DNA from: Actinomycetota bacterium | GTDB taxonomy: Bacteria > Actinomycetota > Acidimicrobiia > Acidimicrobiales > MedAcidi-G1 | DNA: 32,530 nt | Assembly: GCA_014381745.1 (NCBI GenBank) | Contig: JACNLA010000020.1 | Span: 16,833-49,362 of the forward strand | Direction: 5' to 3' | Shown: in pieces, positions 1 through 11,948 of the stretch | Layout of the letters: each line of letters starts with the position of its first letter | Numbering within the stretch: position 1 is the stretch's first letter | Position numbers and translations under genes: made by a program | The notes under the pieces: generated by a model | The model's input: only the letters and a program-made list of their open reading frames with translations | Told to the model about the DNA's origin: nothing | Databases searched by the model: none

Positions 1-1274
1 AGCTGGTCGATCTCGCCCTCACCCATAGGTGTGGAGAGGATGCCGGTTCCACTCGAAACCATGAGGATGCCGTCGTCCAGGAGCAGGGCCACGAACCTGG
101 CAAGGCGTGTCGCTGCTTCGGGATCCGGGTAGGCGTCGCGGTAGTTGATGGGAGATGGGCTCGTCATGTGGATCTGGAACAGGGAGCCTGCCCCGCTGAC
201 GCTGGCCTCAACACCACGCCGACCGATCGCCTCGTTGATTCCCTCTATTGCCATGCGGTTGAGACCGTTCAAACGCTCGACCGCCTCCTGGTCGAACAAC
301 TCCATGGCCGTGCGGCCCGCCGTCATGGTTATCGGGTTGGCTGAGAAGGTGCCCGAATGCGGTACGCGGTAGTCGTCGGAATGCGGGTTCATGACCTGCA
401 TGACGTCGCGGCGCCCGGCTATCGCACCAACCGGGAAGCCCCCTCCGATCATCTTGGCCATCGCCGTGAGATCAGGCTGAATCCCGTAGCCCTGTTGGGC
501 GCCCCCGTAGCAACCCCTGAAGGTGATCACCTCGTCAGCTACCAGCAGTGCTCCGTTGGCCGTTGTCCAGGAGCGGAGCGCATCTACGAAAGCCTGTGTT
601 GCCGGACAGAGGCCCACCCTGTGTGGCATCAGGTCTACTAGAACGCATGCGATGTCGTTGGCGTGGCCGTTCAGGATCTGCACCGCCCTCTCAACGTCAT
701 TGAAGGGAAGGACCACGACATCGTCGAGCACACCACGGGGGGTGCCATGGGCGACCGGCACGCTCTCGGGTGCATCGACACCACCCCAGTTGGCGGGTTC
801 TGCGGTCTGGCTGACCTCGGCAAAGTCGTAGGAGCCGTGGTAGGCGCCCTCCACTTTGGCGATCTTGGGGCGGCCCGTGAATGCCCTTGACACCTTGAGG
901 GTGGCCATGACCGCTTCGGTTCCGGAGTTGACGAACCTGAGCTGGTCGAAACCGGCGTTCCTGGAACATAGGTGTTCGGCGTAACGGATCTCGGCCTCTG
1001 TGGCCATCGTGTACGCCGTGCCGCGTGCCATCTGGTCGGTCACCGCCGCGACGATTGCCGGGTGGGCGTGACCGTGGATGAGGGAGGCCATGTTGTTGGC
1101 AAAGTCGATCCGTTCCACGCCGTCGACGTCGGTGATGCGACAGCCAGTGGCGTGAGCGGCATACAGGGGGTGGGGGGCACGAAGCACGGTGTTGCGGCTG
1201 ACGCCGCCGGGCAGAACCTGCTTCGCCCGCTCGTAGAGGGCCTCGGACACGCTGGGTCCGTTGTCGTCGGTCAT
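1..1274 (-). CDS. Class III PLP aminotransferase, glutamate-1-semialdehyde-like (3' end beyond window)
   Basis: This is a fold-type I, class III aminotransferase of the branch usually annotated as glutamate-1-semialdehyde aminomutase, which also contains the beta-amino-acid transaminases. Visible motifs are PGGVSRNT near the N-terminus, FVNSGTEAVMATL (phosphate binding), the ADEVITFR aspartate motif, and MAKMIGGGFPVGA with the probable Schiff-base lysine at about residue 274. The C-terminus is cut by the window start. The ATG at 1274 overlaps the stop of the CoA-transferase B gene (ATGA), so translation is probably coupled. No other hemA/hemL-type gene is nearby, and the neighbours (aminomutase, 3-oxoacid CoA-transferase) fit catabolism better than heme synthesis. 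A role in deaminating a beta-amino acid made by the upstream aminomutase is inference; the family assignment is secure. Confidence 0.85.
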   Translation of the reverse strand, partial: MTDDNGPSVSEALYERAKQVLPGGVSRNTVLRAPHPLYAAHATGCRITDVDGVERIDFANNMASLIHGHAHPAIVAAVTDQMARGTAYTMATEAEIRYAEHLCSRNAGFDQLRFVNSGTEAVMATLKVSRAFTGRPKIAKVEGAYHGSYDFAEVSQTAEPANWGGVDAPESVPVAHGTPRGVLDDVVVLPFNDVERAVQILNGHANDIACVLVDLMPHRVGLCPATQAFVDALRSWTTANGALLVADEVITFRGCYGGAQQGYGIQPDLTAMAKMIGGGFPVGAIAGRRDVMQVMNPHSDDYRVPHSGTFSANPITMTAGRTAMELFDQEAVERLNGLNRMAIEGINEAIGRRGVEASVSGAGSLFQIHMTSPSPINYRDAYPDPEAATRLARFVALLLDDGILMVSSGTGILSTPMGEGEIDQ

Positions 1275-1939
1275 CGCTCCACCTCCGTCGACCTTGCATC
1301 TCTTATCGGACCGGCCGTCAGGGCGGCTACCTCGTCGAAGCTGACGCCGGCGGTGAGGTCTACTACCTCGAAACCGTCTGGCCCTATGTCAACAACAGCC
1401 AGATCCGTGTAGATCCGGTCCACCACCCCGACACCGGTAAGGGGATAGGTGCACGATTCCACCAACTTGGGTGTTCCATCTCGGGTGCAGTGGCTGGTCA
1501 TCACGTAGACGGCCTTCACGCCCGACACCAGGTCCATGGCTCCCCCGACGGCGGGTATGGAGTCGCCACCGGTCGACCAGTTGGCAAGGTCACCGTTTGC
1601 CGCAACCTCGAGTGCTCCCAGAACACACAGGTTCAGGTGGCCGCCCCGGATCATGGCGAAGCTGTCCGCGTGGTGAAAGTAGGACGCACCGGGCAGGGCC
1701 GTGACCTGTCGCTTGCCGGCGTTGATGAGCTCGGGGTCGCCATAACCGTCATCGGGAGAAGGCCCCATTCCCAACAGACCGTTCTCGGTGTGCAGGATCA
1801 CCTCGCACCCCTCTGGAATGAACTGGGCAATCATCTCGGGCATCCCGATACCGAGGTTCACATAGGAGCCGTCGGCGATGTCTCTTGCTGCGCGTGCCGC
1901 CATCTGCTCTCGGCTGAGACCGACCGGAGCCGACGTCAT
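1271..1939 (-). CDS. scoB: 3-oxoacid CoA-transferase, subunit B
   Basis: Beta subunit of a family I CoA-transferase (succinyl-CoA:3-ketoacid / acetate-acetoacetate type, 222 aa, usual length). The HTENGLLGMG motif carries the catalytic glutamate, about E52, which forms the glutamyl-CoA thioester. Also visible are NLGIGMP near the N-terminus and the GGAMDLVSG motif. Such enzymes move CoA from succinyl-CoA or acetyl-CoA onto a 3-oxoacid. The start overlaps the end of the alpha subunit by 4 nt, and the stop overlaps the aminotransferase start by 4 nt. PcaJ (3-oxoadipate CoA-transferase) is a close relative and cannot be excluded by sequence alone, but no protocatechuate genes are present. Confidence 0.88.
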   Translation of the reverse strand: MTSAPVGLSREQMAARAARDIADGSYVNLGIGMPEMIAQFIPEGCEVILHTENGLLGMGPSPDDGYGDPELINAGKRQVTALPGASYFHHADSFAMIRGGHLNLCVLGALEVAANGDLANWSTGGDSIPAVGGAMDLVSGVKAVYVMTSHCTRDGTPKLVESCTYPLTGVGVVDRIYTDLAVVDIGPDGFEVVDLTAGVSFDEVAALTAGPIRDARSTEVER

Positions 1940-2646
1940 GGGTAGGTGACCCCGCGCGCTACAAGGTCGGACTCGTGTGCGGGTGAGCCGACGTGGACGA
2001 CGCGGTCGACGAAGATCCCCGGGGTTACAACGGCCTCGGGGTCAATCTCACCGGGCGACACGACCTCGGCGGCCTGCACGACCGTTGTGGTAGCGGCCAT
2101 TGCCATGAGGGGTGAGAAGTTGCGCGCAGTCCTGTTGTAGAGGAGGTTCCCGTGAAGGTCCGCCACCCTGGCCTTGATGAGGGCGAGGTCGGCTGTCAGG
2201 GCGTGTTCCAGCACATGGCCTCGACCGTTGAACTCGCGCTGCTCGCGCCCCTCGGCCAACTCGGTGCCAACAGCCGTTGGCGTGTAGAAGCCCGGGATTC
2301 CGGCACCGCCGGCGCGGATGCGCTCAGCCAGGGTGCCCTGGGGAACCAACTCGAGCTCTATCCGGCCGGATCGGTAAAGGTCGGGAAAGACGGTGGAGTT
2401 GGTGCTGCGGGGATACGAACAGATCATCTTGGCGACGCTGCCGGCCCTGATAAGGGCTGCCAGGCCCACCTCGCCGCTGCCGGTGTTGTTGTTGACGACG
2501 GTCAGGTCGGTGGCACCGTGGTCGATGAGGGCGTGGATCAACTCGATTGGGCTGCCAGCCTCGCCGAAGCCGCCGATCATTACGGTCGCGCCGTCCGCCA
2601 CTCCAGCAACCGCCTGTTCAGGATCGGCGACCCTCTTGTCGATCAC
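1936..2646 (-). CDS. scoA: 3-oxoacid CoA-transferase, subunit A
   Basis: Alpha subunit of the same family I CoA-transferase (236 aa). The N-terminal GATVMIGGFGEAGSP is the glycine-rich CoA-binding signature, and VVNNNTGSGEVGLAALI and PQGTLAERIRAGGAGIPGFYT are family landmarks. The start is a GTG only 9 nt after the aminomutase stop and in the same frame, so the two are almost certainly one transcript. It forms a heterodimer or heterotetramer with subunit B in the cytoplasm. The true substrate is not shown by the sequence; neighbours suggest a 3-oxoacid derived from amino acid breakdown. Confidence 0.88.
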   Translation of the reverse strand: MIDKRVADPEQAVAGVADGATVMIGGFGEAGSPIELIHALIDHGATDLTVVNNNTGSGEVGLAALIRAGSVAKMICSYPRSTNSTVFPDLYRSGRIELELVPQGTLAERIRAGGAGIPGFYTPTAVGTELAEGREQREFNGRGHVLEHALTADLALIKARVADLHGNLLYNRTARNFSPLMAMAATTTVVQAAEVVSPGEIDPEAVVTPGIFVDRVVHVGSPAHESDLVARGVTYP

Positions 2647-2655
2647 GTCAGCCGC

Positions 2656-4095
2656 CTATGCGGGTACAGCCGTGGGCTCTTCGGTCCGGAGCGACTTCAC
2701 CCTTGCGTAGTCGAAGAGACCGGCCTCGTCGAAGAGCACCCTGTCCTCGTAGCCGTCAAACCAGATTGCCTCCGGGTTGCGGCCCACGATGCAGACCTTT
2801 CCCCTGTCGGGTGCATCGGCTGCGTTGCGGAGGATCTTGAAGATCACGACACCGTTCTCGGAGCCTGTGAGACCCGGGATGGGTTCGTCGGTGACAGCAG
2901 CCACCTCGGTCTTGCCCTTGTAGTGGGTGATGGAGAGCCTGGCGTGGGCCTCAACGCCGGAGAGGCCCTTCTGGGAATCATTGAGGGTCTGCCATGCGGT
3001 TTCAATCGGCACGTTGAAGGCCTTGTGGGCAATGATGTCGCGCCCGCAAAAGAAGTAGTGGTTCTCTATGCCGACCCGCTTGAGGGTTCTCTGCATGATG
3101 CGCAGGGCTTCGGCGTTGTCGTTGACCCCCTTGATGATCGGAGACTGGTTCTCGACGCTGATCCAGCCGCGGGAGACCACGGCGTCTACTGCCCGTCTGG
3201 CGCTGGCATTCCACTCGTAGAAGCTGTCGCCGTCCTCCATGTACGCACCGCTGTCATCCCGGGCCAGGAACTCGTCGGGGTGGTTGAAGTGGGTCATCAG
3301 CCGAAAGCCCACGTCCGGGTACGTCTTGTGGAACAGGTCCAGCATCGACAGGAAGGCCTCGTCGAAGCGGTCCGGGTGGAACGCCAGTTCCTTGGTGCCC
3401 AGGCGGATGGACTCCACCCCGGCCTCGGCCAGGGCCGTAAGCCAGCCGGCGATCTTGTTGTTGGGCAGCACCATCGGATCGCCACCCGACAGCAAAATCT
3501 CGCGGAGCTTCTCGCGGCCTGAGTCGGGATGGGTGCCACCGTTGGCTGCCACCGCCGCGTTGTGCGCCCGGACGTAGTCGGTGACCTCGACAATCTGGGC
3601 AAGACCCTTCTTGTCGACCGTGCCGTCCTGACGCTTGATCTCCTTGCGGCCGATCAGTTCCTCGCGGTAGCAGAACCGGCAGTGCGCCGAGCACGTGGAG
3701 ATGACGTACATGAGGCCCATCTCGTATTTGTGGAGCAGTCCCTCGACGGGGCTGTAGTCCATCTGGAAGCCCGGGTCCTCGGCACCCTCCAGGTTGAGGG
3801 TCTCCTCAGGTGAGGCCTTCACGAGCTTTTGAAGTGCCGCGCTGTTGCGGGCCATCTCGAAGTAGTGGCGGGTCACCTTGACGGGCATGCGTGCCTCGAC
3901 GTCACGCTCGGTTCCCCTGATCTGGACCAGGCCCGCAAGCTCTGCGTCCGTGTAGAAGCCCAGCGTGTCATCAGGAGCGGTCCCGTTGATGAATGGATCC
4001 AGGCCGTTCAGGATCTGGCGGTCGTACTTCGGGTTCTCCACATGGTCCAGCACGCGGAGTTCGCGTTCGGTGGGCTGGTACTTCGCTCTGGCCAT
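2656..4095 (-). CDS. KamA-family radical SAM aminomutase, divergent substrate pocket
   Basis: A PLP- and radical SAM-dependent 2,3-aminomutase (479 aa, longer than the roughly 420 aa of lysine 2,3-aminomutase). The [4Fe-4S] motif is C135-x3-C139-x2-C142, followed by R144, which aligns with the arginine that binds the substrate carboxylate in the clostridial enzyme. LLSGGDP and THFNHPDE are family blocks. The canonical PGGGGK around the PLP lysine is replaced by HYKGKTEV (K393/K395). The two aspartates that hold the lysine side-chain ammonium appear replaced: the first by R352 in FFCGRDIIAH, the second by a non-acidic residue near 388-390. This argues against lysine as substrate and loosely recalls glutamate 2,3-aminomutase, which has a basic residue there. 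The alignment is from memory. First gene of the operon; GGAGGG precedes the ATG. Confidence 0.85.
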   Translation of the reverse strand: MARAKYQPTERELRVLDHVENPKYDRQILNGLDPFINGTAPDDTLGFYTDAELAGLVQIRGTERDVEARMPVKVTRHYFEMARNSAALQKLVKASPEETLNLEGAEDPGFQMDYSPVEGLLHKYEMGLMYVISTCSAHCRFCYREELIGRKEIKRQDGTVDKKGLAQIVEVTDYVRAHNAAVAANGGTHPDSGREKLREILLSGGDPMVLPNNKIAGWLTALAEAGVESIRLGTKELAFHPDRFDEAFLSMLDLFHKTYPDVGFRLMTHFNHPDEFLARDDSGAYMEDGDSFYEWNASARRAVDAVVSRGWISVENQSPIIKGVNDNAEALRIMQRTLKRVGIENHYFFCGRDIIAHKAFNVPIETAWQTLNDSQKGLSGVEAHARLSITHYKGKTEVAAVTDEPIPGLTGSENGVVIFKILRNAADAPDRGKVCIVGRNPEAIWFDGYEDRVLFDEAGLFDYARVKSLRTEEPTAVPA

Positions 4096-4217: not shown

Positions 4218-5483
4218 GTGAAACCTGCTCGTAGAGACCGGCCTGCAAGGCGTTCAGCAGCCGGCTTCTACGGCTGGCAGATGGTCGCTCTGGCCAGCCT
4301 CGTCGGTGTGCTCACCGGTCCGGGGCAGTCGATCGGTGTCTCCGTGTTTCGCCAGCACCTCTCCGACGGGCTCCGTCTCTCCGACTCTGCAATCGCCACG
4401 GCATATCTGGTTGGCACCCTGTTGTCCTCCACGTTTCAGCCGAGGATCGGCCGATGGGTCGACGAGGTCGGAGTGCGAAGGGCGTCAACGGTGTTCGGTG
4501 CCGTCTTCGCCCTGACCCTTGCCCACATGTCCCTGGTTCGTGGTGCCGTCTGGCTGGCTGTCGGCTTCTTTGGGATCAGGCTGCTCGGTCAGGGCGCTCT
4601 GAGCATGACCTCAACCGTTTCGGTCATGCACTGGTTTGAGCGACGTCGAGGGTTCGCCCTCGGCCTCAAGATGACCCTCACCATGGGAGGCATCTCGGTC
4701 GTACCGGTCCTTCTGGCTCTAGCGATCGACGCCTGGGGGTGGCGCATGGCCTGGTTGGCGGCGGCAGCCGTGGTCGCCCTCACCGCGATACCCGTCAGCT
4801 GGTTCGGTTACGTGAACCGCCCCGCCGATCTGGGGCAACAGCCCGACGGTGGGCTTCGGCCCGACGAGATCGAGGACAGATCGACGCTCCCCTCGGTCAC
4901 AAGGTCCATGGCGCTCCGGTTTCCGGGCTTCTGGATCCTCTCGGCGGTTACCGCCACCAATGCGCTCTTCGGCACAGGCCTCTTGTTCCACCAGACCAAC
5001 CTTCTGGGCGAGATCGGCTATTCGAATGCACAGGCTGCCGCAATGTTTCTGCCGCAGGCGGCTGGTGCTGTGGCCGGCGGCCTCACGTTCGGTTGGCTGG
5101 CGGACCGGAGGGTCCGTAGAAGCCTCCCGGCTGTCGTGGCACTGCTCCTGGCAGCCACGATGTTTCTGGGTGGAACAGCGACGACGTTCCCGACCATCCT
5201 GCTCTACTCGGTGATTCTGGGTGTGACGATGGGGAGTGGAGGTGCCGTTCAGGGTTCCCTGCTTCCGGCGCTCTTTGGCGTGGGCCACATCGGTTCCATC
5301 TCCGGAACCCTCGGCCTGATCGGGGTGCTGGCCTCTGCGATGGGAGCGTTGATGTTCTCGCTGGGCAACACCGTGTTCGGCAGTTACCGGGGTGCGAGCC
5401 TGTGGCTCAGCGTGCTGCCGCTGGCGGTCGCAGTGGTCGCCATCACATTGCGGCGACATTTCACCGTGGACAATCCGTCCTGA
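4218..5483 (+). CDS. MFS transporter, monocarboxylate/OFA-like
   Basis: A 421 aa polytopic membrane protein with about 12 hydrophobic segments. It starts with FYGWQMVALASLVG, the typical opening of the monocarboxylate/OFA-type MFS branch, and has a GRWVDEVGVRR loop between helices 2 and 3 and FGWLADRRVRRS between helices 8 and 9 (the two MFS loop motifs). It probably exports or imports a small organic acid or amino-acid-derived solute. The start is a GTG with no clear ribosome-binding site, so a leaderless transcript is possible. It is divergent from the aminomutase operon across 122 bp, which makes a substrate-uptake role for that pathway possible but unproven. Confidence 0.8.
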   Translation: MKPARRDRPARRSAAGFYGWQMVALASLVGVLTGPGQSIGVSVFRQHLSDGLRLSDSAIATAYLVGTLLSSTFQPRIGRWVDEVGVRRASTVFGAVFALTLAHMSLVRGAVWLAVGFFGIRLLGQGALSMTSTVSVMHWFERRRGFALGLKMTLTMGGISVVPVLLALAIDAWGWRMAWLAAAAVVALTAIPVSWFGYVNRPADLGQQPDGGLRPDEIEDRSTLPSVTRSMALRFPGFWILSAVTATNALFGTGLLFHQTNLLGEIGYSNAQAAAMFLPQAAGAVAGGLTFGWLADRRVRRSLPAVVALLLAATMFLGGTATTFPTILLYSVILGVTMGSGGAVQGSLLPALFGVGHIGSISGTLGLIGVLASAMGALMFSLGNTVFGSYRGASLWLSVLPLAVAVVAITLRRHFTVDNPS

Positions 5484-5498
5484 GGCCAAGCAGTCGTC

Positions 5499-5534
5499 AG
5501 GTCCAGCCCTGCATCCAGAATGCGGGGCTGACCT
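5499..5534 (+). terminator. Probable bidirectional terminator hairpin
   Basis: A strong inverted repeat lies just after the MFS stop: AGGTC, CAGCCC and GCAT on the left arm pair with ATGC, GGGCTG and ACCT on the right around a short loop. A T-rich tract (TTGTTT) follows on the plus strand. It sits between the MFS gene and the convergent tRNA, so it may stop transcription from both sides. Confidence 0.5.
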
Positions 5535-5544
5535 GTGGGTTGTT

Positions 5545-5620
5545 TGGAGCGGACGACGAGATTCGAACCCGCGACCCTCACCTTGGCAAGGTGATGCTCT
5601 ACCAGCTGAGCTACGTCCGC
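5545..5620 (-). tRNA. tRNA-Gly (GCC)
   Basis: Minus-strand cloverleaf of 76 nt with the 3' CCA encoded. The acceptor stem GCGGACG/CGTCCGC is perfect, the D arm is GCTC...GAGC, the anticodon stem TCACC/GGTGA encloses the loop TTGCCAA (anticodon GCC), and the T arm is GCGGG-TTCGAAT-CCCGT. The discriminator base is U, as expected for glycine tRNA. A TACAGT hexamer 11 bp upstream of the mature 5' end is a plausible -10 box. Confidence 0.95.
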
Positions 5621-5686
5621 GTCGGGGCGTAACTGTAGCGGGCACACCGGGCCATGCGACCCACCTGCAGCAGGGAGACGTGGGCC

Positions 5687-5917
5687 TCAGTCCCCTTCGC
5701 CATCGCTCAGGTCGACACGCAGGATGAGGACACCATCTTCCATGGTGGCCTCGGCATCGCCGATGATGGCGAAGTCCATGAAGTCAGCCTGGGCCTGGTC
5801 TATGAACCTCTGACGTTCCTCACCACCGATGGGTGGCATGTTTCGCGAACGGACCGCCTCGGCCCTCTCCCGGAACCGGGCCAGCATCGCATCCAGGTCC
5901 AACTCGGGGCTGCTCAC
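5687..5917 (-). CDS. Small hypothetical acidic protein
   Basis: A 76 aa ORF I do not recognise. It begins at a GTG four bases after the stop of the upstream membrane-protein gene, so the two look like one transcript. The longer frame extending further upstream is an artefact of overlap with that gene. The sequence has an amphipathic helical N-terminal half (LDAMLARFRERAEAVRSRN), a central MPPIGGEER turn, and ends in a short beta-like segment (DGVLILRVDLS) with an acidic tail. No signal peptide, membrane segment or metal-binding motif is visible. Probably cytoplasmic. Confidence 0.55.
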   Translation of the reverse strand: MSSPELDLDAMLARFRERAEAVRSRNMPPIGGEERQRFIDQAQADFMDFAIIGDAEATMEDGVLILRVDLSDGEGD

Positions 5918-5921
5918 AGGA

Positions 5922-6350
5922 TCAACTGGTCTCGACGGTGACGCCGGCATCGACGGTGGTAACGGCCGGGACCTCGACGCCGAGGTGGAGAGAGAGCAGT
6001 TCCTCGAGCTCCGGGTCACCGGGAACCACCGCATCAACTGAAGGTTCCTCAGAAGCGGCATCGACCACGACCGCTCCGGCGGAAGCAGCCCTGCGCCCAG
6101 GCCGGGTATGCCACCAGAAGGCGGCCGTAATCGCAAGCAGGGCAACTGCGATGAGCCGGATTGAGAACACGATCTGATCGATGCGTTCGCCAGCGGTAAG
6201 ACCGTTCTCGTCTACAACCGGGGGAATGGTCTCAATCGTGGTCACCTGAGCCATGACAGGGTCCATGAACAACAGCACAGCAACGGCCGAACCAACGGTA
6301 AGCAGCGCTGCGACTGTCCTACGTACCGGCATGTGCACCAACCACCCCAT
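5922..6350 (-). CDS. Hypothetical membrane protein with two hydrophobic segments
   Basis: Unrecognised protein of about 142 aa. The N-terminus, VRRTVAALLTVGSAVAVLLF, looks like a signal peptide or membrane anchor. After a short periplasmic-type stretch (TTIETIPPVVDENGL) comes a second hydrophobic helix (RLIAVALLAITAAFWW), then an arginine-rich stop-transfer HTRPGRRA and an acidic, low-complexity C-terminal tail. The topology predicts a small inner-membrane protein with a cytoplasmic tail. The start is uncertain: ATG at 6350, GTG at 6338 or ATG at 6332 are all possible, and the last gives the best signal peptide. It is followed closely by the 76 aa ORF. Confidence 0.6.
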   Translation of the reverse strand: MGWLVHMPVRRTVAALLTVGSAVAVLLFMDPVMAQVTTIETIPPVVDENGLTAGERIDQIVFSIRLIAVALLAITAAFWWHTRPGRRAASAGAVVVDAASEEPSVDAVVPGDPELEELLSLHLGVEVPAVTTVDAGVTVETS

Positions 6351-6417: not shown

Positions 6418-7605
6418 TCAGCCGGCAGCCGAAAGGGCTCCTTGGAAATCGGCAACAACGTCACCGGCGTCCTCAAGGCCACATGAGACCCTGATGGTCC
6501 CAGGACCGATCCCCGTGGCGGCCTGCTCTTCTTCGGTCAGGCCCACGTGGGTCGTGCTTGCCGGATGGGTAACGAGCGTCTCAGGCCCCCCGAGGGTGGA
6601 TGCCAGGATCGCCAGCCTTGTCGACTCCACGAACTTCTCCCCGGCCTCTCGCCCGCCAAGCAGGTCGAAGGTCAACAGGCCGCCCATGAAGCTCATCTGG
6701 CGCTGCGCCAGGTCGTGTTGCAGGTGTGACTCCAGGCCCGGATAGGCGACGCGACTCACTGCGTCGTGACCTTCCAGAAACTCGGCAAGGCGCTGGGCGG
6801 TCTCGGACTGTCGGGCAAGGCGGACACCAAGAGTGCGGACACCGCGGTGGGCGTTGAGGGCGTCGGCCGGAGAGGCATTGGCGCCATGCAGCACAGCGAA
6901 GCTCCACAGCCAGGTCATCAACTCCTGTGAACCCGAGACCACGCCGATGCTGGCATCGTTGTGCCCGGCAATGGCCTTGGTGGCCGAGTGGAGGACAAGA
7001 TCGACACCGTGGGCAATTGGCTGCTGGCCCAACGGTGTCGCAAATGTGGAGTCCACTACCGTCATCGGGCCGGCCAACGCTCCAAGTTCATCCAGGTCAA
7101 CCAGGTCCAGATAGGGGTTGGCCGGGGTCTCGGCCACGACGAGCATCGTCTTCCCTGGGCGAATGGCCTCGGCAAATGCACCCGGCTGTGTTCCATCCAC
7201 GAACGTGACGTCGATCCCGAAGCGTGGGCAGACGGTCTGCAACAGCAGCTGTGTTCCGGCGTAGATCTGGCGTTGGGCGACTATGTGGTCACCGGTCGAG
7301 CAGAGCCCCAGCACCACGGCGCTCATCGCCCCCATCCCCGAGGAGAACGCGCGGGAGGCCTCAGCGCCCTCAAGCTCAGCGATGGTCGCCTCGAAGGCGT
7401 TGATGGTCGGGTTGCCGTAACGGGAGTAGAAGCGCTCCGGTGCCGCCGCTGTAGCCAGCCCGCGGCCCTGCTCTACCGAGTCATAGGCAAACGCCGTGGT
7501 CGCCCACAAGATGGGCGCCAGGGCTCCCTGGTTGGACTCCCGACCGGCCAGGACTGCCATCGTCTCAGGAGCAAACTCTCTGTCAGCTTCATTCCGTTCA
7601 GCCAT
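6418..7605 (-). CDS. PLP-dependent trans-sulfuration enzyme (MetB/MetZ/MetY type)
   Basis: A Cys/Met-metabolism PLP enzyme (395 aa from the ATG at 7605). Landmarks are YSRYGNPT (phosphate and PLP contacts), the SSGMGAM block, and LHSATKAIAGH with the Schiff-base lysine at about K210. It incorporates sulfur from cysteine or sulfide into an activated homoserine, giving cystathionine or homocysteine directly. Family members with these three reactions cannot be separated by eye; length favours MetB or MetZ over the longer MetY. The gene overlaps the end of metX by 8 nt, so it uses the O-acetylhomoserine made by MetX and is under the same riboswitch. The open frame extends upstream, but GGAGG precedes the ATG at 7605 and that start matches the family N-terminus. 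Confidence 0.85.
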   Translation of the reverse strand: MAERNEADREFAPETMAVLAGRESNQGALAPILWATTAFAYDSVEQGRGLATAAAPERFYSRYGNPTINAFEATIAELEGAEASRAFSSGMGAMSAVVLGLCSTGDHIVAQRQIYAGTQLLLQTVCPRFGIDVTFVDGTQPGAFAEAIRPGKTMLVVAETPANPYLDLVDLDELGALAGPMTVVDSTFATPLGQQPIAHGVDLVLHSATKAIAGHNDASIGVVSGSQELMTWLWSFAVLHGANASPADALNAHRGVRTLGVRLARQSETAQRLAEFLEGHDAVSRVAYPGLESHLQHDLAQRQMSFMGGLLTFDLLGGREAGEKFVESTRLAILASTLGGPETLVTHPASTTHVGLTEEEQAATGIGPGTIRVSCGLEDAGDVVADFQGALSAAG

Positions 7606-8833
7606 GTCCCTCCACCTCCCGGAGAAAGTCAGCCAGGTGTACCCCCACCTCGCGGGTTGCGAGAAGGAAACCGTCATGCCCATCGGGGCTGTTGATCACG
7701 TGGTGTTCGCAGCGTCCACCTGCGGCGACGATCACGTCCCTCAGGTTCGCCTGCTGGTGAACCGGGTACAACATGTCCGAGTCGATGCTCACCGTGAGCA
7801 CCGGGACCGACAAGAAGCGGGCCACGGCCGATTCCAGGCTGCCACGGTCCCTTCCGATGTCGTGCAGGTCCATGGACCGGTTCAGAACCATGTAGCTGTT
7901 GGCATCGAAACGACGAGCCAACTTGGCCCCGTGGTAGTCGAGGTAGGACTCGACCTGAAAGCGGTCCCACAGGTCGTACAACGAGCGAGGGTCGACCAGC
8001 TCGCGCGAGAACCGGTCGGTGAACACCTCGTCGCTGCGGTAGGTGACCTGGGCCACCGACCGTGCCACAGCTAGGCCCGCAGCTGGACCGTCCCCGGGTT
8101 CGGCGTCGTAGTAGTCGCCGCCGCGAAAGCGCGGGTCCAGAGCCAGGGCGGTCCGGCCCACAGCGCTCCAGGCGATCTGCTGGGCGCTCGCAGCAAGCGT
8201 GGTCGCCAGCGGAGCAATCGAGCGGACCCTGCGTGGAAACATTACGCCCCACTCCAGAACCTGCATCCCGCCCATCGAACCGCCGACCACGGTCAGCCAG
8301 CGGTCTATCCCGAGATGATCCGCAACGCCGGCCTGACAGCGCACCATGTCCCGGGCTGTAACGGTCGGAAAGCTGGAGCCGTACGGGCGATCGGTGGAGG
8401 GGTCGACAGACGCCGGTCCGGTGGACCCTTGACACCCGCCCAGGACGTTGACGCACACGATGAAGTGCCTGTCGGGATCAAGGGCGCATTCTGGTCCGAT
8501 CACCCCGTTCCACCAGCCAGGAGTCGCATGACCGTGCCCGATCCGACCGTGAGCATGCGAGTCGCCGGTGAGGGCATGACACACCAGGACCGCGTTGTCG
8601 GCCTCAGGGCTCAACTCGCCCCAGGTCTCGTAGGCCATGGTGACCTGTTCAAGGACACCACCTGCTTCGAGCACAAAAGGCCTGCCGTGGGAGACATCCA
8701 CGAATCGCCGATCACCGACAGGATCGCCTGACCTCCATGCACCCGAAGCGGGAAGGTCGTCTGCGTAGGCGCGCGGATGCCTGGGCAGGTCGCCGGGACC
8801 AGCCCCAGCTCCACCAACCACGTCGCGCGTCAT
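7598..8833 (-). CDS. metX: Homoserine O-acetyltransferase
   Basis: An alpha/beta-hydrolase-fold acyltransferase (411 aa) that acetylates homoserine in the first committed step of methionine synthesis. Motifs are CHALTGDSHA, NVLGGCQGSTGP (oxyanion and substrate region), the nucleophile elbow GGSMGGM with S186, and the C-terminal SIDSDMLYP aspartate and DGHDGFL histidine. GGAGGAG lies just before the ATG. A SAM-sensing leader precedes it, and the trans-sulfuration gene overlaps its 3' end. A homoserine succinyltransferase activity exists in some MetX relatives and is not excluded. Confidence 0.93.
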   Translation of the reverse strand: MTRDVVGGAGAGPGDLPRHPRAYADDLPASGAWRSGDPVGDRRFVDVSHGRPFVLEAGGVLEQVTMAYETWGELSPEADNAVLVCHALTGDSHAHGRIGHGHATPGWWNGVIGPECALDPDRHFIVCVNVLGGCQGSTGPASVDPSTDRPYGSSFPTVTARDMVRCQAGVADHLGIDRWLTVVGGSMGGMQVLEWGVMFPRRVRSIAPLATTLAASAQQIAWSAVGRTALALDPRFRGGDYYDAEPGDGPAAGLAVARSVAQVTYRSDEVFTDRFSRELVDPRSLYDLWDRFQVESYLDYHGAKLARRFDANSYMVLNRSMDLHDIGRDRGSLESAVARFLSVPVLTVSIDSDMLYPVHQQANLRDVIVAAGGRCEHHVINSPDGHDGFLLATREVGVHLADFLREVEGHG

Positions 8834-9046: not shown

Positions 9047-10768
9047 TCAAACTCCTGCCGGGTGGCGGCTCCACCACCACTCCAGAACCGGTGATTCCTT
9101 GACCCCGTATGCCCTACACATGACCGATCCGAAGGCCAACCAGACCTCCGGCCCCGCTTCTCCAGCCGATTTCCAGAGTTGTTGCACCAACTCCTCACCC
9201 TCAGACCATGCACCCTCATCGACCGGCAGTGGAATTCCACACACCTGGCGTGCAGACAGCTTGATCCGGTCAGATGCCCTCGCAGCTCCAAGCGTCGTTC
9301 GGGCAGCCATGGCCGTCACCGGTGGTGCAGACAGCGCCGCTGCCAGCTTCCAGAGGAAACCAGTCTCGGGTTCGACGATGAGCAGCGGTGTCACGGGAAC
9401 CATCTCCCCCGTCTCATCGACCACCACCTCTATGACCCTTGTCTGGGTCGCTACGAGAAGCTTGGGACGCCGACGGGCCTCCAGCCAGTTCGCCACGCTC
9501 GGGTCAACTCCGGCAACCGAATCCCGGTCAACGACGGGAGCAATCCAGTTGCGGCCGGCGAACCGGGCGGGCTGATCGGCCCAACCGCAGCGAAGAGGAT
9601 CGACGAGGCCGGTGGTTATGAGCGGAGACCCGGTGTCAGAACCACCGCTGCGCTCCCGCGTTGCCGGCACCAGGCCGTAGTAGTGCTGCCTGAAGCCGGC
9701 GGTCACCGATGCCCTCTCCCCTACCGGGCCAACAGCTTCAGACGTAGCCCTCAGGTTGACAGACGGAATGCCCAGCAATTCAGAGACGAGACCTCCCCAC
9801 CGCTCACCCGTCTGGGGCGCCGCTACCTTGCCGGCCGGTGACACTTCACGATCCACAAACAGGCGAACAGACGCCTGACGCGATCCTCTCCTGACCACCG
9901 GGGCACAAACCTCTGTCCTGCCCCCGAAGATCCGGGTGCGGTCGAACCAGAGCGCCTCGAGGCACCCACCAGACAACAGACGGGATCGAACCGACGCAGC
10001 GTCCCTGGCAGCCAGCAGTGACTGGGGTTGGATCAGCGCCATCCTGCCCTGATCCACCAACAGGTCCAGCCCAAGTGCCAGGAAGAGCCAGGCCGTGTCC
10101 GTGTAGGCGCCGACCAGATCCCCGAAACGCTCCCGCAGAACCTTTCGCTCGTCAACATCTCGAACGGTTCCTCCCCGAACCTGTCCCAGGAACGGCGGGT
10201 TACCGACAACTGCCTCAAAGCCCGCCTCAGGCCGGCCAGCCCAGAGGCCCGCAGGGTCCCGGAGGGAGTCACCGACGACTACGCCGGCGATCTCCCCGCT
10301 TGGGGTTCCCGCCCACGAGGCGAGGGTCCAACGACATACAGCAACCGCCAGCGGGTCAATGTCGGCCCCGAACAACATCCGGGTGGCGATCTCAACACGT
10401 GTGCCCACGCCCATGTCAAACAGCCGTTGGGCCGCAGCCAACAGGAAGGCTCCGCCGCCGCATGCCGGGTCCACGACGGTTCCACGAGCAACCACCTGAG
10501 CCACGAGGGCAGCCGCCACCTCAGGAGGCGTGTAGAACGCTCCGAGGCTGCGCCGGTCCTGCCAGTCCATAAGGCTCTCGTAGAGCCGTCCCAGCCCACC
10601 ACCGTCTGTCGGGTCGACGGGACCATCGAGCACCACTGGCTCGATGACGTCGCCGTCGACCATGAAAGCAGGTCCACCCGACCCGGCAACAGCAGAAGCC
10701 AGCACCACCTCGATTGGAACCCCAGCGCTGAGAGCGGCCCGTGCCCCTGATGTGGTCGAGCCGTTCAC
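9047..10768 (-). CDS. Solitary N6-adenine DNA methyltransferase (Eco57I/TaqI type)
   Basis: A gamma-class adenine-N6 DNA methylase of about 573 aa. GAFYTPPEV (motif X region) is followed by DPACGGGAFL (motif I, SAM binding) and VVGNPPF (catalytic motif IV). The C-terminal half, with hydrophobic and aromatic stretches such as RQHYYGLVPATRERSGG, is the probable target-recognition region. The GTG at 10768 is chosen because it falls 10 nt after the helicase stop; an in-frame ATG at 10834 would overlap the helicase. No nuclease, specificity subunit or BREX/DISARM partner is adjacent, so it looks like an orphan methylase co-transcribed with the helicase. A fused endonuclease domain is unlikely at this length. 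Confidence 0.82.
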   Translation of the reverse strand: MNGSTTSGARAALSAGVPIEVVLASAVAGSGGPAFMVDGDVIEPVVLDGPVDPTDGGGLGRLYESLMDWQDRRSLGAFYTPPEVAAALVAQVVARGTVVDPACGGGAFLLAAAQRLFDMGVGTRVEIATRMLFGADIDPLAVAVCRWTLASWAGTPSGEIAGVVVGDSLRDPAGLWAGRPEAGFEAVVGNPPFLGQVRGGTVRDVDERKVLRERFGDLVGAYTDTAWLFLALGLDLLVDQGRMALIQPQSLLAARDAASVRSRLLSGGCLEALWFDRTRIFGGRTEVCAPVVRRGSRQASVRLFVDREVSPAGKVAAPQTGERWGGLVSELLGIPSVNLRATSEAVGPVGERASVTAGFRQHYYGLVPATRERSGGSDTGSPLITTGLVDPLRCGWADQPARFAGRNWIAPVVDRDSVAGVDPSVANWLEARRRPKLLVATQTRVIEVVVDETGEMVPVTPLLIVEPETGFLWKLAAALSAPPVTAMAARTTLGAARASDRIKLSARQVCGIPLPVDEGAWSEGEELVQQLWKSAGEAGPEVWLAFGSVMCRAYGVKESPVLEWWWSRHPAGV

Positions 10769-10778
10769 CGATCCGAGC

Positions 10779-11948
10779 TCAGGCTGCTTCCTCGGTCGGG
10801 TCCCATGCGTGCAGGTCAGAGAGGCGGTCGTCATTTGAGAAAACCTCGACGATCGGAAACTTCATTCCGAGTCGACGCAACAACTTGCGAACTTCGAGTT
10901 CCTCGCTCCAGATGACGAGGCTCACGACCACACCGGACTCACCTGCTCGAGCCGTCCGGCCCGACCGGTGCAGGTAGGTCTTGGCGTCAGAAGGCGGGTC
11001 GTAGTGGATGACCACGTCAACGTCGTCGACGTGGATGCCCCGTGCCGCAACGTCGGTCGCCACCAGCGCCTTCACCTTTCCCTTGTCGAAGTCGCCGAGG
11101 GCCTTTTCCCTCTGGCTCTGGCGAAGGTCACCGTGGATTGCAGCTGCGTTCACGCCCTCCTCGATCAACTTCCGGGTCAGCTTGTCGGCTCCCCACTTGG
11201 TGCGAGAAAACACGATCGTCTTGTTGGAGGCGTTGATGATCGCCGCCGCCACCTTCACGCGGTCCATTTCGTGGACTGCCAGGAAGCGGTGCTCCATCTC
11301 CTCGACCGTCGCCTCGCCTGCAGCGATCTCGTGCATAACCGGATCCTGCTGATAGCGGCTGATCAGGCCCCCGACCATGCCGTCAAGCGTGGCTGAAAAG
11401 AGCAGGGTCTGGTGGTCGGACTCGGCCCGACGCAGAATCCACTCGACCTGCGGCATGAAACCCATATCGGCCATGCGGTCGGCCTCGTCGATGACCACCT
11501 TTTGAACGTTTGCCACCGAGAGTTCCTTGCGCTCAATCAGATCGATCATGCGGCCCGGTGTGGCCACAACCAACTCAACACCCCTCTCCAGGGCAGCAAT
11601 CTGTTTCTCGATTGGAGCCCCCCCGTAGACGGCCAGAACCGAGATGTCTCTGGCCTTCGCCAGGGGCTCAAGCTCACGACACACCTGCACCGCCAACTCA
11701 CGGGTCGGAACCAGAGCAAGGCCAGTTGGGCGCCCGGGCTTGGCCTTCGAGAGAAGTTGTACGAGCGGAAGGCCGAAGGCAAGGGTCTTTCCGGAACCGG
11801 TCTTGGCACGCCCACACACATCGCGGCCAGCAATGCCATCCGGAATGGTGAGGGTCTGGATTTCAAACGGGGAGGTAATGCCCCGCTCGGTCAGAACGTC
11901 GACCAGGTCCTGGTCGACGCCCAGATCGGCGAACTGGGTCGTCGTCAT
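10779..11948 (-). CDS. DEAD-box ATP-dependent RNA helicase
   Basis: A compact two-domain DEAD-box helicase (389 aa). Motifs in order are the Q-motif region (FEIQTLTIP), AKTGSGKT at 48-55, PTRELA, TPGR, DEAD at 154-157, SAT at 185-187, a conserved domain 2 with VATDVAARGIHVDDVD, and HRSGRTARAG. There is almost no C-terminal extension, so it lacks the RNA-binding tails of DeaD/CsdA. It probably remodels RNA in ribosome assembly or mRNA decay. The downstream methylase gene follows after 10 nt. The 184 bp upstream (11949-12132) hold no gene I can support and probably carry its promoter and leader. Confidence 0.92.
   Translation of the reverse strand: MTTTQFADLGVDQDLVDVLTERGITSPFEIQTLTIPDGIAGRDVCGRAKTGSGKTLAFGLPLVQLLSKAKPGRPTGLALVPTRELAVQVCRELEPLAKARDISVLAVYGGAPIEKQIAALERGVELVVATPGRMIDLIERKELSVANVQKVVIDEADRMADMGFMPQVEWILRRAESDHQTLLFSATLDGMVGGLISRYQQDPVMHEIAAGEATVEEMEHRFLAVHEMDRVKVAAAIINASNKTIVFSRTKWGADKLTRKLIEEGVNAAAIHGDLRQSQREKALGDFDKGKVKALVATDVAARGIHVDDVDVVIHYDPPSDAKTYLHRSGRTARAGESGVVVSLVIWSEELEVRKLLRRLGMKFPIVEVFSNDDRLSDLHAWDPTEEAA

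Follow-up and report, generated by a model that had tools for sequence, protein, structure and literature searches.

The gene at positions 2656..4095 on the reverse strand of the window, the 32,530 nucleotide stretch of actinomycetotal DNA analysed here, encodes a radical SAM/PLP aminomutase from a KamA-like family of its own, proposed to act as an L-2-aminoadipate 2,3-aminomutase. It is very likely a beta-amino-acid-forming mutase which feeds a beta-keto acid CoA pathway. Its substrate is probably L-2-aminoadipate, and there is a fair likelihood that L-2-aminoadipate 2,3-aminomutase represents a new activity and the central reaction of a previously undescribed aerobic route for the degradation of lysine and 2-aminoadipate. 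We infer catalytic steps, substrate, direction and residue roles from residues, fold, operon, partner families, neighbourhoods and co-occurrence.

The aminomutase and its active site

The open reading frame starts with ATG and encodes a 479 amino acid protein. Models of the NCBIfam KamA superfamily match this protein, each with a score far under its cut-off: TIGR00238 for the KamA family subfamily (97 bits, cut-off 199.2), the AblA-like model (84 of 396 bits), arginine 2,3-aminomutase (83 of 600 bits), glutamate 2,3-aminomutase (TIGR04368, 78.3 of 650 bits), EpmB (78 of 369 bits) and lysine 2,3-aminomutase (TIGR03820, 76 of 525.4 bits). A Pfam search at E 0.001 gave no matches. The sole solved relative found by sequence at E 0.001 is the clostridial lysine 2,3-aminomutase (LAM; 2a5h), with an E value of 5.5e-14 which improves to 5.7e-17 when the family profile is used as query. 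An AlphaFold2 model was built from 44 family members, these being the rows kept from the 53 first tried in the family alignment after removal of L057, which has a stop codon, and of eight more dropped for a shorter list. The mean pLDDT of the model is 79.8, lower near the cluster, where the block means for residues 101-160 are weak (51-59). The model matches 2a5h with a Z of 27.5 over 320 residues at an rmsd of 4.4, the next entry having a Z of 12.8, and Foldseek gives an E value of 1.9e-13 for the same pair. By its CX3CX2C motif, its carboxylate arginine, its PLP lysine (assigned by position alone) and its modelled LAM fold the window protein is a member of the KamA-type radical SAM/PLP aminomutase superfamily.

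Residue conservation was counted in 88 distinct homologous loci, the window excluded and duplicate loci removed; L008, a distant homologue, had been excluded from an earlier set of counts. Invariant are C135, C139, C142, R144, R352, D353, H391, Y392, G394 and K395. The three cysteines form the CX3CX2C motif of the [4Fe-4S] cluster (3670..3693, reverse strand, as for all residues given here). R144 (3664..3666) is the counterpart of LAM R134 and follows the third cluster cysteine by two positions, like in 2a5h. The first-pass annotation had described the cluster cysteines and the carboxylate-binding R144 as kept, and so they are. In the clostridial enzyme we take D293 and D330 to be the side-chain-binding aspartates, R134 the ligand of the alpha-carboxylate and K337 the PLP lysine. 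These residue names were sought in PMC9105233 and none was found there.

The replacement of the first aspartate by R352 (3040..3042), claimed in the same annotation, is borne out by two alignments. With phmmer R352 falls, without gaps, on residue 293 of 2a5h (query residue 365 ends at chain residue 306, an offset of 59), and in a profile-profile alignment with six KamA-family proteins it falls on the Asp which all six have in their YQCD-type motif. Five of these are LAM-like, of which the four scored against the lysine 2,3-aminomutase model reach 510, 516, 497 and 423 of 525.4 bits, and the sixth is an EpmB above its own cut-off (522 of 369 bits). The second aspartate site was placed by hand count from two anchors; the printed alignment stops at residue 381. 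Counting backward from the PLP lysine gives S388 (2932..2934), which is Ser in 86 of the 88 loci, and counting forward from the LSG motif gives I389, both non-acidic as had been proposed, so that neither of the two acidic side-chain-binding residues of lysine 2,3-aminomutase has an acidic counterpart in the window protein. The loop HYKGKTEV (residues 391-398, 2902..2925) does stand in place of PGGGGK, with the refinement that the lysine itself is retained as K395, the proposed Schiff-base lysine for PLP; as K395 is kept, the loss of the glycine loop need not mean the loss of PLP function. A basic residue at the first side-chain site would fit a substrate with an acidic side chain.

The absence of both aspartates, the score of 76 against a cut-off of 525.4 bits and the position of the protein in a tree agree with the earlier view that the substrate is probably not lysine. 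In this tree of 34 rows a branch with an SH-aLRT of 100 divides all 17 family rows from those of the LAM-like proteins and EpmB; it is a quick tree with a program warning about long branches, and nothing beyond this separation was taken from it. The window protein falls outside the EpmB and the three LAM-like proteins; EpmB is the only representative of the verified lysine clade here, as the LAM-like rows of the tree are just or well under the lysine 2,3-aminomutase cut-off. Lysine 2,3-aminomutase (KamA/AblA, 2a5h) and EpmB are thus similar to the window protein in fold, CX3CX2C motif, carboxylate arginine, GGD motif and position of the PLP lysine, but the window protein has Arg and Ser for the aspartates and HYKGK for PGGGGK, its family carries inserts between the cluster and GGD, and its gene is found in an operon with a CoA-transferase and a transaminase. 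The warning that automatic naming as lysine 2,3-aminomutase would mislead holds only in part: the protein stays under every NCBIfam cut-off, and its Mesorhizobium homologue carries the label 'hypothetical protein'.

Operon partners and neighbouring genes

The aminomutase gene heads a tight operon, which the first-pass annotation had not noticed and which hints at the substrate. In this operon the gene is followed, on the same strand, by 3-oxoacid CoA-transferase subunit A (1936..2646; TIGR02429, 345 bits, cut-off 128.5), 9 bases away, subunit B (1271..1939; TIGR02428, 295.7 bits, cut-off 243.55), which shares 4 bases with subunit A, and an aminotransferase of class III and beta-amino-acid type (3..1274; PF00202), which shares 4 bases with subunit B and is cut by the start of the window. 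Both CoA-transferase subunits are above the 3-oxoacid CoA-transferase cut-offs. The full aminotransferase open reading frame, available in L176, has 476 amino acids. Divergent to the operon is a gene for an MFS transporter and possible importer (4218..5483, forward strand; PF07690), which is found beside or near the aminomutase gene in six loci of the window's group, some of them being the same locus twice. In two relatives of the window, L177 and L178 (the same loci as L009 and L010), MenB/BadI-like and BadH-like genes lie between the MFS gene and the aminomutase gene, where the window has none. Further along the reverse strand of the window are a Cys/Met-type PLP enzyme and a MetX-like homoserine O-acyltransferase (6418-8833), probably a pair for methionine or cysteine synthesis, and a 595 amino acid N6 DNA methylase (PF02384, Eco57I-like) whose open reading frame overlaps that of a DEAD-box helicase (9047-11948).

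Relatives of the aminomutase were collected by a scan of genome contigs, from which the best 80 of 191 were kept (69-89% identity). All three partners are near the aminomutase gene in 52 of the 55 loci with at least 4.5 kb of downstream sequence, the aminomutase being without partners in the remaining three (L020, L024 and L062), and in 14 of the 25 loci with shorter flanks. No partner is present within the 193 to 4,315 bases downstream in L021, L022, L045 and L056 (4.3 kb in L045). L036 and L038 are among the few loci with partners on the other strand. An RpiR-type regulator is near the aminomutase gene in 53 of the 80 loci, a thiolase in sixteen and a gene for a branched-chain-type substrate-binding protein in eight. 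In the 18.5 kb around the operon on the window contig no gene resembling the operon thiolases was seen. A carbon-nitrogen hydrolase-DUF2848 fusion and a Cupin_7 protein are encoded at L018:1105-2568 and L021:2766-3107, upstream of an ABC transporter which adjoins the aminomutase gene; they are a possible hint to the imported compound.

The best solved relative of the operon aminotransferase is the Sphaerobacter beta-amino-acid transaminase (6k8h). According to the accessible part of the published description, this enzyme takes beta-leucine and aromatic beta-amino acids at rather low rates, and its R36 might bind the substrate carboxyl (PMC10589169). R36 corresponds to R27 of the operon aminotransferase, which is kept in all 68 sequences compared; with a characterised beta-transaminase as closest relative and the carboxylate arginine kept, the enzyme is classified as a beta-amino-acid class III transaminase. 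An extra arginine, R32, is present in 67 of the 68, in a position occupied by Ser in 6k8h and ForI, and this second arginine would suit a dicarboxylic substrate. The Acidobacteriota operon L174 carries a different class III aminotransferase (4886-6256, reverse strand), 34% identical to that of the Mesorhizobium plasmid and apparently a replacement.

One aminomutase copy (L104, 67% identity) is located on this conjugative Mesorhizobium plasmid, together with a ferredoxin, the aminotransferase and a CoA-transferase of another, glutaconate-type family. The subunits of this CoA-transferase share 79-83% identity with their Chelatococcus counterparts, which adjoin pcaF in a pca operon, and 77-79% with those from a pca operon of Methylocella. 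The beta subunit reaches 81% to the Chelatococcus protocatechuate operon and 78.5% to Methylocella, and the alpha subunit 83% to Chelatococcus across 230 residues. The alpha gene has a frame change near its 3' end and there is no match for its first 19 residues, so this CoA-transferase copy is possibly broken or misread. The ferredoxin gene directly follows the aminomutase gene and encodes a likely electron donor; a BREX defence cluster is found about 5 kb away. Four operon thiolases were scored against TIGR02430 (pcaF, cut-off 597), of which those of L174 (670 bits) and L036 (680 bits) are above the cut-off, while those of L080 (551 bits) and L154 (568 bits) are under it, yet still have TIGR02430 as best model.

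Source of 2-aminoadipate and distribution of the family

In two loci the operon adjoins a gene which would supply 2-aminoadipate. In L042 the operon is followed by an RpiR gene, head to head with an L-piperidine-6-carboxylate dehydrogenase gene (NF050084, 807 of 730 bits), behind which a protein with both saccharopine dehydrogenase domains is encoded, and in L153 it is a gene for this dehydrogenase (736 of 730 bits) which adjoins the end of the operon. These are only two of 90 loci, many with short flanks, composed of the 80 surveyed, the plasmid locus, L153-L156, L171-L174 and the window; if a genome is taken to have some 3,500 genes, chance alone would, as a rough estimate, give fewer than 0.1 immediate neighbours of this kind.

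Co-occurrence was compared in 246 sampled Planctomycetota genomes. The dehydrogenase (E at most 1e-120) is present in all eight genomes with the aminomutase versus 96 of the 238 others, and a lysine 6-transaminase above cut-off in six of the eight versus 35 of 238; Fisher tests, uncorrected for kinship, give p values of 0.0009 for the dehydrogenase and 0.0003 for the transaminase, which become 0.002 and 0.0015 when the centre genome is omitted. Of the genomes behind the named loci 32 of 41 carry the dehydrogenase at E 1e-80. Lysine 6-transaminase above cut-off is present in 14 of 42 genomes, these 41 and that of the window, versus none of 14 controls.

The window's own group is different in this respect. 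At E 1e-80 the dehydrogenase is absent from the window genome and from the 20 others searched in its family, and five of these 21 carry the aminomutase. It is likewise absent from nine of the 41 genomes behind the named loci, two of which (L010 and L012) are also among the 21. A lysine 6-transaminase above cut-off is found neither in the window genome, whose transaminase matches are all below that cut-off, nor in the Acidimicrobiia behind L010, L012, L014, L015, L017 and L018; the link to lysine therefore rests on other lineages. Five of the genomes without the dehydrogenase (L012, L014, L015, L017 and L018) have a gene for a branched-chain-type substrate-binding protein within the locus, in several directly beside the operon, which makes import a plausible supply, and as a guess the MFS transporter of the window may import 2-aminoadipate. 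The other four (L010, L022, L026 and L079) are without such a gene in the locus. Given that the window's group is without the dehydrogenase, its aminomutase may act on a different acidic substrate, with glutamate as the first candidate.

The spread of the family is patchy, with members in Planctomycetota, Acidobacteriota, Acidimicrobiia, Verrucomicrobia and Gemmatimonadota and on the rhizobial plasmid, a distribution which suggests horizontal transfer. The aminomutase is present in eight of the 246 Planctomycetota genomes, sample centre included, with scores dropping from more than 900 bits to 111 and nothing in between, and in five of 247 genomes from the phylum of an Acidobacteria MAG, centre included and one copy cut by a contig end. 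In 398 genomes from the phylum of a Lysobacterales MAG it is found in the centre genome alone. A sample of 296 genomes from the window's own phylum contains, besides the window, one distant homologue only. Within the window's genus three of six other genomes carry the gene, and one of 30 from other genera of the family.

Proposed route and alternative substrates

In the proposed mechanism the [4Fe-4S] cluster would cleave SAM to give the 5'-deoxyadenosyl radical, and the substrate would be held as a PLP aldimine via K395, with R144 binding the alpha-carboxylate and R352 the distal one. Transfer of the amino group from C2 to C3 would then turn L-2-aminoadipate into 3-aminoadipate, which the operon aminotransferase would convert to 3-oxoadipate and the CoA-transferase to 3-oxoadipyl-CoA. 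A thiolase, encoded in some operons and presumably elsewhere in the genome in others, would finally yield succinyl-CoA and acetyl-CoA. In many hosts 2-aminoadipate could be formed from lysine by a lysine 6-transaminase or dehydrogenase, giving piperideine-6-carboxylate, followed by L-piperidine-6-carboxylate dehydrogenase; import is the probable source in the group of the window.

2-Aminoadipate is preferred because of the pca-like CoA-transferase of the plasmid, the two thiolases over the pcaF cut-off and the two loci adjoining the dehydrogenase. It is the one-carbon-longer homologue of glutamate, and it is the operon context which points to the longer of the two. A glutamate 2,3-aminomutase, leading by way of 3-aminoglutarate and 3-oxoglutarate to a CoA ester, is unlikely but would account for the basic residue at the first site, which recalls the glutamate enzyme, whose side-chain sites we take to be a Lys/Asn pair. 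Glutamate is moreover found in every cell, so no feeder gene would be needed, which would suit the window genome. The score of 78 bits is however far from the TIGR04368 cut-off of 650, the plasmid CoA-transferase and two of the four scored thiolases match 3-oxoadipate enzymes, the partners indicate a six-carbon diacid, and the feeder genes near or together with the operon produce 2-aminoadipate. Glutamate was ranked second since pca-type partners and an aminoadipate-forming dehydrogenase were found.

The invariant R352 of the aminomutase and the extra R32 of the aminotransferase favour a second carboxylate in the substrate, and together with the 3-oxoadipate-type partners they make a neutral or aromatic amino acid (leucine, phenylalanine or methionine), processed by the same transaminase and CoA steps, improbable. 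Such a substrate would agree with the acceptance of beta-leucine and aromatic beta-amino acids by the related Sphaerobacter transaminase, in the accessible part of its description (PMC10589169), with the branched-chain-type substrate-binding protein gene in eight of 80 loci and with the BadH/BadI-like genes which some relatives have next to the operon; the window has none of these in the interval from its MFS gene to its aminomutase gene. Operation of the pathway in reverse, from 3-oxoadipate to 2-aminoadipate, for lysine or as a solute, is the least probable and would be hard to credit given the co-occurrence with genes which make 2-aminoadipate from lysine. The mutase, transaminase and CoA-transferase reactions are all reversible in principle, but the condensing direction of the thiolase is unfavourable.

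Degradation of L-2-aminoadipate as proposed here follows the logic of lysine fermentation (kam cluster) and of aerobic beta-lysine degradation, in which an aminomutase is followed by formation of a beta-keto acid and by CoA transfer. It differs from both in its proposed substrate and in its enzymes: none of the four operon genes codes for a lysine 5,6-aminomutase, a diaminohexanoate dehydrogenase, a cleavage enzyme or an acetyltransferase. The last two steps, by 3-oxoadipate CoA-transferase and 3-oxoadipyl-CoA thiolase, are those of the beta-ketoadipate pathway (pcaIJF), but 3-oxoadipate would derive from an amino acid and not from protocatechuate or catechol. In Phaeobacter lysine is broken down via cadaverine and 5-aminopentanoate and via pipecolate and 2-aminoadipate (PMC5653290); the text of that study does not mention an aminomutase. 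In the accessible parts of the open-access literature, which leaves most subscription journals outside, we found no description of a 2-aminoadipate 2,3-aminomutase and, for 3-aminoadipate or for lysine catabolism with 3-oxoadipate, no account of an aminomutase step; 'beta-aminoadipic acid' appears in the accessible part of PMC9854754 only as a title in the reference list. Nothing was found in the open-access literature on pcaIJF of S. meliloti.

If the proposal is true, lysine breakdown would be joined to the beta-ketoadipate pathway without loss of carbon as CO2, in a degradation route with succinyl-CoA and acetyl-CoA as its direct end products. One more substrate would be added to the few listed for 2,3-aminomutases, a conserved radical SAM family which is without a name and is found in many uncultured bacteria would be assigned its substrate, and a possible enzyme route to 3-aminoadipate would be at hand. 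Several more KamA-superfamily groups without names were seen at L090-L098 and L113-L132 (CHAYCTFCFRWAQF type and CGAYCRYCFRKRLF type), and the two members scored from these groups, L090 and L113, are under every curated cut-off.
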